This document shows, in pieces, positions 26,993-31,813 of a DNA stretch of 64,000 nt. The position numbers and the translations under genes are program-made. The DNA comes from Streptomyces soli (lineage in GTDB: Bacteria; Actinomycetota; Actinomycetes; Streptomycetales; Streptomycetaceae). The stretch lies in the NCBI RefSeq assembly GCF_003999195.1, contig NZ_RJVR01000303.1, positions 1 to 64,000 of the forward strand, given 5' to 3'. Position 1 is the first letter of the stretch. The number at the start of each line of letters is the position of its first letter. The notes beneath the pieces are model-generated. The model was not told where the DNA came from. It saw nothing but the letters and a program-made list of their open reading frames with translations, and did not search any database.

Positions 26993-27430
26993 GGCTGTCC
27001 ATGGCGCCGAACGCGCCGCGTACCGGGAGGCACTGGAACAGCGGGCCGAGCACCGCAGCAAAGCCGTCGTCGTCCGTGACGGTCGGCAGGTCCTGGTGCC
27101 CGCGCCGCGCGCCGACGAGATCCCAGCCCAGTGGCATGCACCCGGCGGCCAGGCCCGCGACCCCGCCACCGGACTGTCGCACGGCACCGTCATGAACCGG
27201 CTGCACTCGGCGGGAACCGCCGTGCGCACCCCGAGCGAAACCCGCCAGCTTCGCCTCGACAAGGGCCAGGAGGCAGCCCGGCGCCATCTCGCCGCGGAAC
27301 TGCGCGCCCGCTACGAAGCAGGCGCGACGGTCGCCGCCCTGGGATCCTCACCGTCTTCACCGCCAAACCCGGCAGCGAAAGCCACAACAGACTTGAGTTC
27401 CTGTCCGTCCTCGGCGACCAACTCGTCTGA
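26993..27430 (+). pseudogene. Remnant of a small helix-turn-helix protein
   Basis: An open frame without a good start reads AERAAYREALEQRAEHRSKA, then GLSHGTVMNRLHSAGTAVRT and RRHLAAELRARYEAGATVAA. The order of segments resembles HTH proteins built of RARYEAGATVAALA...LSHGTV repeats. It then runs out into unrelated sequence and stops. No ribosome binding site, and the N-terminus is not recognisable. Most likely a decayed gene. Confidence 0.4.
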
Positions 27431-27446
27431 CCCCGGCCCACGAGAG

Positions 27447-27707
27447 GCTGGCCGACGCATGGATTCACGTGGATGCCAATGGCGGTCTTGCTGGCTTGGC
27501 GGTCGCGCTCGAATTCGAAGATGCCCTCTTGGAGGAAGAGCGCCAGGCCGTGAGCGGCCGAGGCGATGCGTACGAGCAGGTCGAAAGCAGCATCCGGGTC
27601 GGGGGCGATACGGCCCGCGATGGGCATGAGGGTGTCGGAGAGGGCCTGGCTCGCCGCGACGAGTTCCGGGTAGCGGGCCTTGTCCAGGCCATGGGAGAAC
27701 GGCTACG
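27447..27707 (-). pseudogene. C-terminal fragment of a TetR-like regulator
   Basis: The minus strand reads DKARYPELVAASQALSDTLM and LLVRIASAAHGLALFLQEGI followed by FEFERDR, resembling the ligand domain of TetR proteins. No HTH domain precedes it, and the frame continues into unrelated sequence. Another minus frame at 27720-27790 (LRRLLFWRYLLAYQARYW) may belong to a different fragment. I read this as debris. Confidence 0.35.
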
Positions 27708-27974: not shown

Positions 27975-28005
27975 TCGTGCGTGGTCCCCCGTGGACCACG
28001 CACGA
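27975..28005. repeat. Perfect 13-bp inverted repeat upstream of the DUF305-YVTN gene
   Basis: TCGTGCGTGGTCC (27975-27987) and GGACCACGCACGA (27993-28005) are perfect complements around CCCGT. It lies 110 bp upstream of the start codon at 28116. It may be an operator or a transcript hairpin; there is no T tract. Confidence 0.85.
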
Positions 28006-28115: not shown

Positions 28116-30017
28116 GTGAAGGGCAGCGCACTTCGCCGACTGGGTGTGGCCGGAACAGCGGGATTCCTCGCTTTGGGCCTGGTCGCGTGTCAGTCCGATG
28201 GGCCGGGGAGGGCCGCGTCACCGCATACTCACCCGTCGCCGGTGAGCGCGCACGGACCGTTCACGCAAGAGATGAACAAGAGCATGGAAGTCATGATGGA
28301 AGCCATGGCAGATTCCCCCATGACCGGCGATGCCGATCACGACTTCGCGGCCATGATGGTGCCGCATCACCAGGGGGCCATCGACATGGCCAAGGCGGTC
28401 CTGGAGCACGGTAAGGACCCTGTACTGCGGAGACTGGCCCAGGAGATCATCGTCACGCAGCAGCAGGAGATCGGGGTGATGAAGAGCCGGATGTCGTCGA
28501 GGCCCCCATCCGGCCCGTCGCCGGAGCCGATACGCAAGGGCAAGGAAGATGCAGCTCAGGGGGCCGATGCGGGATCAGACCCAGTGATCCCCATCTCCAG
28601 CCACGACCGCGTGTACACCGCCGACCAGACCTCGAACACCGTCTCGGTGATCGACCCCGCCGCCAACCGGCTCCTGGGCGTGATCCGTCTCGGTGACCCC
28701 GTGCCCGGTTCGCTCAGCCCGCTGTACAAGAACCAATTGCTGGTGCATGGCGGGGGCTTCTCTCCGGACCACAAGACCCTGGCCATCGTCTCCATCGGCT
28801 CCAACTCGGTCACACTGATTGACACAGCGACCAACAAAGTGAAGGGCGTTGTCTACATCGGCCGCTCACCGCACGAGGCGTTCTTCACGCCCGACGGCAA
28901 GGAACTATGGGCAACCGTCCGCGGGGAGGATTACGTGTCAGTGATCGATCCCGTGAGGATGAAAGAAAAGCGCCGCGTCAAGACGGCGAACGGACCGGGA
29001 ATGGTGATGTTCCGGCCGGATGGCCGATACGCCTTCGTGCCCTCGAGCTTCACCCCCGAAGTGAGCGTGGTGGACACCCGGACGTACCGGGTCGTGGCTC
29101 GAGTCCCCCAGGCCAGCCCCTTCTCACCCAATCTGGCCGTGAGCCGGGACGGGACCGAGGTCTGGTTCACGCTCAAAGACAGCGGCAAGACACAGGTGAT
29201 GAGCGCCCGTCCCCCCTTCCGCATCCTTGCGACGATCAACACCGGGCCGATCAGCAATCACGTCACGCTTGTCGACAACCAAGTAGGTAAGTTCGCTTAC
29301 GTGACGGTAGGCGGGGAAAACGTCGTAAAGGTCTACCGGCGCGGCAAGGTACCCGCCTTGGTGGCCACCATCCCCACCGGCAATCTGCCGCACGGCATCT
29401 GGGTCTCGGGCGACGGTACGCGGGTCTACGTCGGCCTCGAGAACCAGGACGCCGCGATCGCCATCGACACACTCAAGAACAAAGTGATCGCCACGATCCC
29501 CATCGGACAGCAGCCGCAGCAGTTGATCTACGTTCCCCAAGCCGTCCCATCCGGCACGGGTACGGCCAACCTGCAGCCCCTCGGGGTCGCGGGTCACGCC
29601 GGTCACCTCACGTTGAGCGCGCCGGAAGGCAGCCGCAGGCGGGCGCACGCGACCGTCTCCGTGAATGCGCTCGGCGCCCTGGACCTCCTCCAAGTCGCGG
29701 CCACAGGCCTGGATCCCGGAAAGAATTACACGCTCTGGCTCACGGAGAACCGGACAGCACCATTTGGCCACAAGGCAGCGCTCACCATGTTTACCGCAAA
29801 CGCTTCAGGCGCCCAGGTCGGCCAGGCAATCGGGCTGTTGCGCCAGGTGCTGACCCCTCCGAAGCCGGCGAAGTCCGCTGCCCGTCAGCGCTTCCTGATC
29901 ATCACACCGGCAGGCAGTAATGTGCCCGTGGCCATCCAGGAGCGCTACCGGCCCATGCCTCCCCCGCCGGGCGCGTCGCCAGAACCGGCGCCCGCAGCGG
30001 GTAGCGGAAAGCGGTGA
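28116..30017 (+). CDS. Lipoprotein with DUF305 domain fused to a YVTN beta-propeller
   Basis: 633-residue exported protein. The GTG at 28116, 5 nt after AGGGAGA, gives a signal with lipobox LVAC (Cys 25). Residues ~50-127 form a DUF305 domain (HDFAAMMVPHHQGAIDMAKA), a helical His/Met-rich fold found in proteins linked to copper. After a charged linker, residues ~160-475 contain repeated YVTN-type blades (VYTADQTSNTVSVIDPAANR; SVTLIDTATNKVKGVVYIGR; VYVGLENQDAAIAIDTLKNK). Residues ~495-610 form a beta-rich tail (GLDPGKNYTLWLTENRTAPF), and the end is proline-rich. I know of no function for this combination; metal or redox handling at the membrane surface is a guess. Confidence 0.88.
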   Translation: MKGSALRRLGVAGTAGFLALGLVACQSDGPGRAASPHTHPSPVSAHGPFTQEMNKSMEVMMEAMADSPMTGDADHDFAAMMVPHHQGAIDMAKAVLEHGKDPVLRRLAQEIIVTQQQEIGVMKSRMSSRPPSGPSPEPIRKGKEDAAQGADAGSDPVIPISSHDRVYTADQTSNTVSVIDPAANRLLGVIRLGDPVPGSLSPLYKNQLLVHGGGFSPDHKTLAIVSIGSNSVTLIDTATNKVKGVVYIGRSPHEAFFTPDGKELWATVRGEDYVSVIDPVRMKEKRRVKTANGPGMVMFRPDGRYAFVPSSFTPEVSVVDTRTYRVVARVPQASPFSPNLAVSRDGTEVWFTLKDSGKTQVMSARPPFRILATINTGPISNHVTLVDNQVGKFAYVTVGGENVVKVYRRGKVPALVATIPTGNLPHGIWVSGDGTRVYVGLENQDAAIAIDTLKNKVIATIPIGQQPQQLIYVPQAVPSGTGTANLQPLGVAGHAGHLTLSAPEGSRRRAHATVSVNALGALDLLQVAATGLDPGKNYTLWLTENRTAPFGHKAALTMFTANASGAQVGQAIGLLRQVLTPPKPAKSAARQRFLIITPAGSNVPVAIQERYRPMPPPPGASPEPAPAAGSGKR

Positions 30018-30029
30018 CGCCCGCTGGGG

Positions 30030-30408
30030 GCGCCTTGTCCACTGCTGTGGCTCGGGGCCGCTGCTGGACGCGGTGGAGGAGCGCTGCACCGCGCACACGG
30101 AGCGTTTCCAGGCGAAGGCGGCGGACCCGGAGGCCGCCTCGGACGCGTTCGAGCTGGTGCTTCAGCTTCCGGGCTGACGCTGACGGTGCCGCCGGGGCGC
30201 AGCATCCTGGACCACCGTTCAGGGCGCGGGTGTCCAGGTGCTGTACTCCCGCACGGAGGGCACCTGCGGCACCTGCGAGACCGACATCGTCGAGGGCGAG
30301 GCGGACCATCGGGACGCGGTGCTCACCGCCGAGGAGCAGGCCACGGGCGAGACCATGATGATCTGCGTGTCACGCTGCCGGGGTGCGCGGCTTGTCCTTG
30401 ACCTGTGA
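30030..30408 (+). pseudogene. C-terminal remnant of a phthalate-dioxygenase-reductase-like (VanB-type) ferredoxin reductase
   Basis: Fragments in different frames give the reductase end HCCGSGPLLDAVEERC, the linker AADPEAASDAFELVLQ, LTVPPGRSILD, and the plant-type 2Fe-2S ferredoxin tail EGTCGTCETDIVEGEADHRD with TMMICVSRC and ARLVLDL. At least two frameshifts (near 30170 and 30220) and loss of the whole FMN/NAD part make it dead. Vanillate demethylase reductases of this type produce protocatechuate, which fits the neighbouring pca genes, but the original substrate is unknown. Confidence 0.75.
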
Positions 30409-31041
30409 GTCCTCCGCCGCCCCGTCGTGCTGCCACTTGGGGTGATGGTCGCGGACCCACTGCGGGGTGACGAAGCCCGTACGCATCCCGAGGCGGGCCT
30501 CGGGATCGCGTGCGGCCATCCAGATGTGGCCGATGACGACCGCGCCGATGGCCAGCGCCAGCCAGTCGTGGACGAAGGTGGCGCCGGTGCGCAGGGTGAC
30601 CACCACCATGTTCGGGAACCACATCATCAGACCGGTGCCGATCATGACCAGCGCGGCACCGGCCGCGAAGGACGCGTACACCTTCTGGCCCGCGTTGAAC
30701 TTGCCCGCCAGGCGCAGTGATTCGGGCCTGCGGCGTATGGCGTCGCGCAGCCAGCTCCAGTCGTACGAGGCGAAGCGGTTGAGCAGCTTCAGGTTGTGGC
30801 GGAAGGCGCGGGAGGCGAGCCCGGCCAGGACCGGGACGGGGAGCATGATGCCCGCCCATTCGTGGACGGTGACCACCAGGCGGCGCCGGCCGACGATCTC
30901 GGCGAGCGCGGGCAGGTAGAGCATCGCGGCGGTGACCAGGCAGATCAGCATCAGGGCGGACGTGGTGCGGTGCACCCAGTGCTCGGCCGGGGTGAAGCGG
31001 CGGATACGGCGGCCGGTGGCCGCCTTGTCAGGTGGAGTCAT
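30370..31041 (-). CDS. Membrane cytochrome b (Ni/Fe-hydrogenase/formate dehydrogenase gamma type)
   Basis: 223-residue membrane protein with four helices and histidines placed for b-heme binding: FTPAEHWVHRTTSALML, VVTVHEWAGIMLPV, TFVHDWLALAIGAVVIGHIW. The ATG at 31041 overlaps the end of the upstream molybdopterin gene by 14 bp, so the two are co-translated and likely form a complex passing electrons between quinol and the periplasmic enzyme. Its 3' end overlaps the dead ferredoxin reductase fragment on the other strand by 39 bp. Confidence 0.87.
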   Translation of the reverse strand: MTPPDKAATGRRIRRFTPAEHWVHRTTSALMLICLVTAAMLYLPALAEIVGRRRLVVTVHEWAGIMLPVPVLAGLASRAFRHNLKLLNRFASYDWSWLRDAIRRRPESLRLAGKFNAGQKVYASFAAGAALVMIGTGLMMWFPNMVVVTLRTGATFVHDWLALAIGAVVIGHIWMAARDPEARLGMRTGFVTPQWVRDHHPKWQHDGAAEDSQVKDKPRTPAA

Positions 31042-31735
31042 CGCTGCGTCCGTTGGAGCGGCCGACCCAGGCGTCGACGTCGTAACCGTAGTGCTCCCAG
31101 TAGCCGGGCTCGACTCCCTTGGTGACCTCGATCCCGGACAGCCACTTGGCCGACTTGTAGAAGTACATCGGTGCGACATAGAGGCGAACGGGACCGCCGT
31201 GTGCATTCGTGACCGGCTGGCCCTGTATCTTGAGGGCGACGATGACGTCGTCGCGGCGGGCCTGCTTGAGGGTCAGGCTCTCGCTGTAGGCGCCGTCGAA
31301 GCAGGTGAAGCGGACGGCGGTGGCCTCGTCCCGTACGCCCGCCAGGTCCAGCAGGTGCGAGAGCTTCACGCCTTCGAACGGGGTGTTGTCCACCCGCCAT
31401 CCGGTGACGCACTGAACGTCGCGGACCATGCGGGTCTGCGGCATGGCACGCAGGTCGGAGAGCCGGTAGGTGGCCGCTTTGTCCACCAGGCCGCTCACCT
31501 TCAGCCGGTAGTCCGTCTCCGAGCGGTGCGGAATGGAGGACGCCACCGAGTAGAAGCGGAAGCCACCCCCGCCGGGCAGCAGACCGGTGACCCCGGTGGG
31601 GTCCTTGCTGCTGACCGCCGACAGCGCGGAGTCCAGGCCGCCCTGCAGTTTGGCCCCGAACGCGACACCCGCCGCGCCGAGCCCGATCATGCCGAGCATC
31701 ACGCGCCGGCCGACCGGCGCGCCGATTTCTTCCAT
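31028..31735 (-). CDS. Molybdopterin-dependent oxidoreductase, sulfite-oxidase fold
   Basis: 235-residue exported enzyme. The N-terminus has a twin-arginine-like signal (GAPVGRRVMLGMIGLGAAG). The molybdenum-ligating Cys is in MVRDVQCVTGWRVDN. PFEGVKLSHLLDLAG, LYVAPMYFYKSAKW and GYWEHYGYDVDAW are typical of the MsrP/YedY-like small sulfite-oxidase fold. Start at ATG 31735, upstream of the coupled cytochrome b gene. The substrate is unknown; methionine sulfoxide repair, as for MsrPQ, is one possibility, but the partner here is not MsrQ-like in length or motif. Confidence 0.88.
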   Translation of the reverse strand: MEEIGAPVGRRVMLGMIGLGAAGVAFGAKLQGGLDSALSAVSSKDPTGVTGLLPGGGGFRFYSVASSIPHRSETDYRLKVSGLVDKAATYRLSDLRAMPQTRMVRDVQCVTGWRVDNTPFEGVKLSHLLDLAGVRDEATAVRFTCFDGAYSESLTLKQARRDDVIVALKIQGQPVTNAHGGPVRLYVAPMYFYKSAKWLSGIEVTKGVEPGYWEHYGYDVDAWVGRSNGRSDDST

Positions 31736-31813
31736 ACCGCCCACACTAGACCTTGTTCCAGGGCTTCCCACGATCGCCCGAGGGCTGTAATGGGACGGTA
31801 AGGACCCGCCGGC

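Follow-up and report, generated by a model that had tools for sequence, protein, structure and literature searches.

The window, that is, the whole stretch of 64,000 nucleotides of Streptomyces soli DNA that was analysed, contains a complete gene for a lipoprotein of 633 amino acids, which starts with GTG at 28116, immediately preceded by the ribosome-binding site GGGAG, and ends with a TGA stop codon at 30017. The features of the locus are the following.

27975..28005, no strand: perfect 13-bp inverted repeat with a 5-nt loop, 111-141 nt upstream of the gene (sequence)
28116..30017, plus strand: complete lipoprotein gene (open frame, ribosome-binding site, lipobox, Pfam, NCBIfam, AlphaFold2)
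28116..28193, plus strand: lipoprotein signal peptide with lipobox LVAC and Cys26 (sequence)
28248..28484, plus strand: DUF305/CopM-like domain, residues 45-123 (PF03713, NF049983)
28581..29588, plus strand: seven-bladed YVTN propeller, residues 156-491 (TIGR02276, AlphaFold2, Foldseek match to 1l0q)
28746..28748, plus strand: H211, start of the innermost strand of the first complete blade (conserved in 42/43; AlphaFold2)
28872..28874, plus strand: H253, innermost strand of blade 2 (43/43; AlphaFold2)
29259..29261, plus strand: H382, innermost strand of blade 5 (43/43; AlphaFold2)
29391..29393, plus strand: H426, innermost strand of blade 6 (43/43; AlphaFold2)
29577..29960, plus strand: C-terminal Greek-key β-sandwich, residues 488-615 (AlphaFold2, Foldseek)

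Domain architecture of the encoded lipoprotein

The lipobox LVAC and Cys26 support the claim of an earlier note on this DNA that the product is an exported lipoprotein, and Pfam, NCBIfam and AlphaFold2 agree with its further claim that a single chain combines, in this order, a DUF305 domain, a seven-bladed YVTN propeller and a third β domain with its core at about residues 495-610. The AlphaFold2 model of the whole chain, built from a 30-row alignment from which rows from plasmid records were left out, has a pLDDT of 84 and a pTM of 0.74; the linker between the DUF305 domain and the propeller is flexible and modelled with low confidence (pLDDT <50).

The N-terminal domain matches Pfam PF03713 at residues 45-123 (E 4.5e-17; 62.9 bits at a gathering cut-off of 27). 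The earlier note had made its reading depend on the presence of a DUF305 fold at residues 50-127, and the model places the three helices of this fold at residues 48-128. In the NCBIfam profile for CopM (NF049983), the domain scores 84.7 bits, under the curated cut-off of 90, and the DUF305 proteins that are encoded separately next to a propeller (see below) score 85.0-90.1 bits. Seven residues, M57, M60, M64, M81, H84, H85 and M91, are invariant, being present in 27-28 of the 28 DUF305 rows of the alignment. CopM of Synechocystis is a copper-binding copper-resistance protein (PMC4335983); conserved methionines and histidines in a DUF305 domain are common to both proteins, but CopM contains two DUF305 domains and lacks a propeller.

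The third domain, modelled alone, reaches a pLDDT of 80 and comes structurally closest to Cu/Zn superoxide dismutases (3km1: TM 0.64, rmsd 3.0 Å, Foldseek E 5.7e-3). The copper-ligand motif of the Cu/Zn superoxide dismutases is HGFHxH; it is missing here, the likely equivalent stretch after GLxPG being KNYTLWL. An RskA-like identity of this domain was considered and set aside: the RskA_C profile gives 14.5 bits vs a Pfam cut-off of 29.4, with weak matches in 3 of 23 members, hhalign reports a probability of 61% over 27 columns, and structurally a SOD-like fold matches better. The domain is treated here as a putative SOD-like or Ig-like sandwich.

Conserved histidines in the propeller

The YVTN repeats are recognized by TIGR02276 in 5 stretches (E 1.1e-34), and several propeller families in Pfam match as well. 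In the model, the propeller consists of seven blades with a velcro closure in which the last innermost strand joins three N-terminal strands, and the top PDB matches in Foldseek are YVTN-type propellers, namely, the archaeal S-layer protein 1l0q (E 1.4e-24), the hydrazine synthase β subunit and YncE. Although the fold and the repeat sequence are shared with the YncE/YVTN propellers (3vgz, 1l0q) and with hydrazine synthase beta, the NCBIfam equivalog cut-offs are far from reached (44.6 bits vs 400 for YncE, NF052280), membership in the hydrazine synthase beta family also being rejected on its cut-off, and 1l0q lacks the histidine set described below. The likeness to L-NosZ, the lactonase-type nitrous-oxide reductase, is weak and confined to the repeats (NF052460; 48.5 bits vs a cut-off of 700); the present family differs in having only four conserved histidines and a third domain that the fold search does not identify as a cupredoxin.

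Across an alignment of 43 propellers, H211, H253, H382 and H426 are the only conserved histidines (H163 and H219 are variable), and all four persist even in relatives with 37-40% identity. They occupy the same position in the YVTN register, eight residues before the final glycine of the repeat, in blades 1, 2, 5 and 6 (the register of H382, whose blade carries an insertion, was placed by alignment), and in the AlphaFold2 model (positions 186, 228, 357 and 401) DSSP places them at or near the starts of the innermost strands. In blade 7, the equivalent position is taken by Q468. The residues M296 in blade 3 and N339 in blade 4, which are conserved in the close family, lie one residue past this position, so a seven-membered metal ring is not established, and the candidate ring was reduced to the four histidines, along with Q468, after the register was checked. 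The earlier note had suggested searching the predicted propeller pore for metal ligands; sequence and model do offer possible ligands.

Further invariant polar residues of the propeller are E254, R269 and N381. The positions aligned with the four histidines contain no histidine in archaeal 1l0q or in a paralogue from the same genome (L003). Three distant propellers (L041-L043) keep all four histidines but neither M296 nor N339; two of these, L041 and L043, which come from the window's genus, lack DUF305 and have C-terminal cysteine clusters (DCCCC, ECCC) and ECF sigma-like genes nearby. The predicted placement of the histidines at the starts of the innermost strands makes catalysis by the propeller plausible. 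The other use that the earlier note saw for the propeller, docking, finds no support.

Phyletic spread and phylogeny

A genome scan identified relatives at 26 loci. The three domains are encoded in one frame in other Streptomyces (L009, L010, L040), in Streptosporangiaceae (L012, L015, L018), in another metagenome-assembled genome (MAG) of Actinomycetes (L013) and in Verrucomicrobiota MAGs (L011, L014, L016, L017, L019). Hence the fusion is neither confined to one strain nor an artefact of the annotation of two genes, a possibility raised in the earlier note: the window and 12 other loci each have a single uninterrupted frame. In one more Streptomyces locus (L031:1097-2657), the fusion is broken over two frames, through either pseudogenization or a sequencing error.

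In Acidobacteriota, Pseudomonadota and Deinococcota, the DUF305 domain and the propeller with its C-terminal domain are encoded by separate adjacent genes; the hosts of these split pairs include Acidobacteriota, Burkholderiaceae, Rhizobiales, Caulobacter, sphingomonads, Enterobacterales and Deinococcus. The DUF305 gene mostly comes first, the order being the opposite in Deinococcus and some Acidobacteriota. Judging from these comparisons, the gene in the window joins a widespread exported gene pair in a Rosetta-stone fusion; the view of the fusion as an oddity of one chain gives way to that of a conserved two-gene unit, the fusion of which recurs in other genomes. The earlier description of DUF305 proteins as otherwise small and often encoded near copper genes is right in that fused DUF305 is uncommon, but too narrow, a propeller gene next door being common.

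In the propeller tree, 12 of the 13 fused sequences group in a single supported clade (100/96). The exception, from a Verrucomicrobiota MAG (L017), is placed outside it on weak forks, which fits either one fusion event or two. The fused homologs are 61-81% identical to the window protein across phyla, and the spread is patchy: the 35 genomes examined from the window's genus include 2 with the fused form and 3 with a distant propeller, and among 397 genomes sampled from the phylum, with at most three candidates scored per genome, only the copy from the window itself was detected. Together, the patchy distribution and the cross-phylum identity suggest horizontal transfer. The fused loci that were compared have no common neighbours, which implies that the protein travels alone, and sigma-factor and sulfite genes are mostly missing from them.

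Flanking sequences and gene neighbourhoods

The perfect 13-bp inverted repeat upstream of the gene, reported earlier, was confirmed, with arms at 27975-27987 and 27993-28005. It has no second match in the genome at up to 3 mismatches, and no such repeat was found 5' of the homologs tested, so nothing ties it to the gene; the idea that it serves as an operator of the lipoprotein gene was dropped, given the lack of conservation. Nor is it unusual in its surroundings, since the window holds other perfect repeats of like size (19 in overlapping counts, against 0 in mononucleotide shuffles).

The notion that the gene is flanked by debris applies on the downstream side, where a frame-broken remnant of a 2Fe-2S ferredoxin-type gene (30037-30405, plus strand; Fer2 E 8.4e-6) lies directly 3' of the gene, but not upstream, where 27096-27630 contains no convincing gene and shows weak HTH-like similarity only. 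Aromatic-catabolism genes are located near the remnant, which probably represents the terminal part of a degraded oxygenase reductase. On the minus strand, facing the lipoprotein gene, a cytochrome b561 gene overlaps a gene for a sulfite-oxidase-type molybdopterin oxidoreductase (30370-31771). It is possible that the latter (Oxidored_molyb; 31028-31771) is a functional partner of the lipoprotein; these two neighbours occur in no other fused locus.

By raw count in the 15 annotated plasmid loci, which represent the top of the match list and are partly related to each other, ECF sigma and anti-sigma genes are found near the pair in 8, a sulfite-oxidase-type molybdoenzyme in 6 and a TDT transporter in 4. 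ECF-like genes are also present near four loci of the genome scan (L022, L025, L027, L033). Some loci have CopD, plastocyanin-type or cytochrome neighbours; on a Deinococcus plasmid (L036, 8701-9928), a plastocyanin/azurin-type copper protein and a CHRD-domain protein adjoin the split pair. The genes that recur beside the pair are those for ECF factors and sulfite metabolism, not those for copper efflux.

A 2019 study of the sulfite-oxidising enzymes of Starkeya novella described a DUF305 gene and a YVTN propeller gene 12 bp apart, with the genes for RpoE1 and its anti-sigma factor next to them; RpoE1 activates the promoters of duf305 and sorA, and expression of the propeller gene is high on tetrathionate (PMC6527743). 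By this published description, the gene set Snov_0990-0993 is the same as in the split loci: the DUF305 gene (Snov_0990) is followed by the YVTN gene (Snov_0991), and, unlike the fused chain, these are two sigma-controlled genes (PMC6527743). The RpoE1/RpoE4 system of S. meliloti responds to sulfite (PMC3511301). No function is assigned to the DUF305-propeller pair in the literature we found. The neighbour genes and the published expression data point to sulfite/tetrathionate stress, and copper resistance is probably not the main story.

Possible function of the DUF305-propeller pair

The persistent pairing of the two domains, together with their fusion, makes a joint function likely, the combination of a Cu(I)-chaperone-type domain and a propeller with invariant histidines suggests loading of a copper site, and the sulfur-stress context points to the class of substrate. 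The DUF305 domain and the propeller probably cooperate in a metal-dependent device. We propose that the gene encodes, in a single chain, the pair consisting of an exported DUF305 metallochaperone of the CopM type and a YVTN propeller. The Met/His set of DUF305 would bind Cu(I) and pass it to the four-histidine site of the propeller, which would act as a copper-dependent oxidoreductase, in the manner of SELENBP1/methanethiol oxidase, with a sulfur oxyanion or thiol that builds up under sulfite/tetrathionate stress as its substrate; the SOD-like sandwich may be a structural or docking module. In Streptomyces, the device would be lipid-anchored outside the membrane and would operate in the absence of the sigma-factor genes with which the split pair is associated in other organisms. 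For this handover of Cu(I) from DUF305 to a propeller copper site acting on sulfur oxyanions or thiols, we estimate a probability of about 0.4.

In SELENBP1, histidines of the propeller channel are needed for copper-dependent thiol oxidation and some of them also for copper content (PMC10362175). This precedent shows, by analogy, that such copper-thiol chemistry is possible in a propeller. The resemblance consists in a propeller fold with histidines that, in SELENBP1, serve a copper-dependent activity on sulfur compounds; the histidine motifs of SELENBP1, HH and HXXH, are not those seen here, and no Pfam or NCBIfam match to the selenium-binding-protein family was obtained at E up to 1.

The same conserved metal-type residues of DUF305 are compatible with a protein that sequesters copper or silver, in which DUF305 and the propeller histidines would bind toxic metal at the cell surface, with no catalysis. 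CopM, as a copper-resistance protein, is a precedent, and the CopD, plastocyanin-type or cytochrome genes that adjoin some loci would fit. However, a propeller with an invariant histidine set plus E254, R269 and N381 exceeds what sequestration needs, the recurrent neighbours are not copper-efflux genes, and the inducing condition in print is tetrathionate; we consider this reading unlikely.

We give similarly little credence to a role of the pair as an extracytoplasmic sensor of copper or sulfur species that regulates an ECF sigma factor through the anti-sigma factor encoded next to it. The frequent co-location with ECF sigma and anti-sigma genes could be read this way, secreted proteins of rpoE1-like operons have been proposed as regulators (PMC3511301), and the third domain is weakly similar to RskA_C. 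Yet the fused genes mostly lack sigma or anti-sigma neighbours, the Starkeya pair is itself controlled by the sigma factor, and the RskA_C similarity is the short match described above. Least probable of the three is a propeller for non-metal docking (of polysaccharide, peptide or protein), with DUF305 as an accessory and the histidines stabilising the fold, because, even though propellers of the YVTN type frequently occur at the cell surface, the top structural match is 1l0q and the chain has a lipid anchor, the four histidines are invariant here and missing from generic YVTN proteins, and the CopM-type partner is persistently paired.

Conclusions

DUF305 proteins tend to be regarded as copper-binding proteins that act alone. 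Their recurrent pairing with a propeller that has an invariant histidine set, an association confirmed by fusion, provides a candidate client for many of them, turning a 'domain of unknown function' into a testable model of a chaperone and its enzyme. The connection with ECF-controlled responses to sulfite and tetrathionate suggests a first substrate class. More tentatively than the copper handover itself, the pair may represent a new class of copper propeller enzymes that come with their own built-in or operon-encoded metallochaperone, have spread horizontally over at least 5 phyla, and act in the cell envelope to detoxify or oxidise a sulfur oxyanion or thiol.
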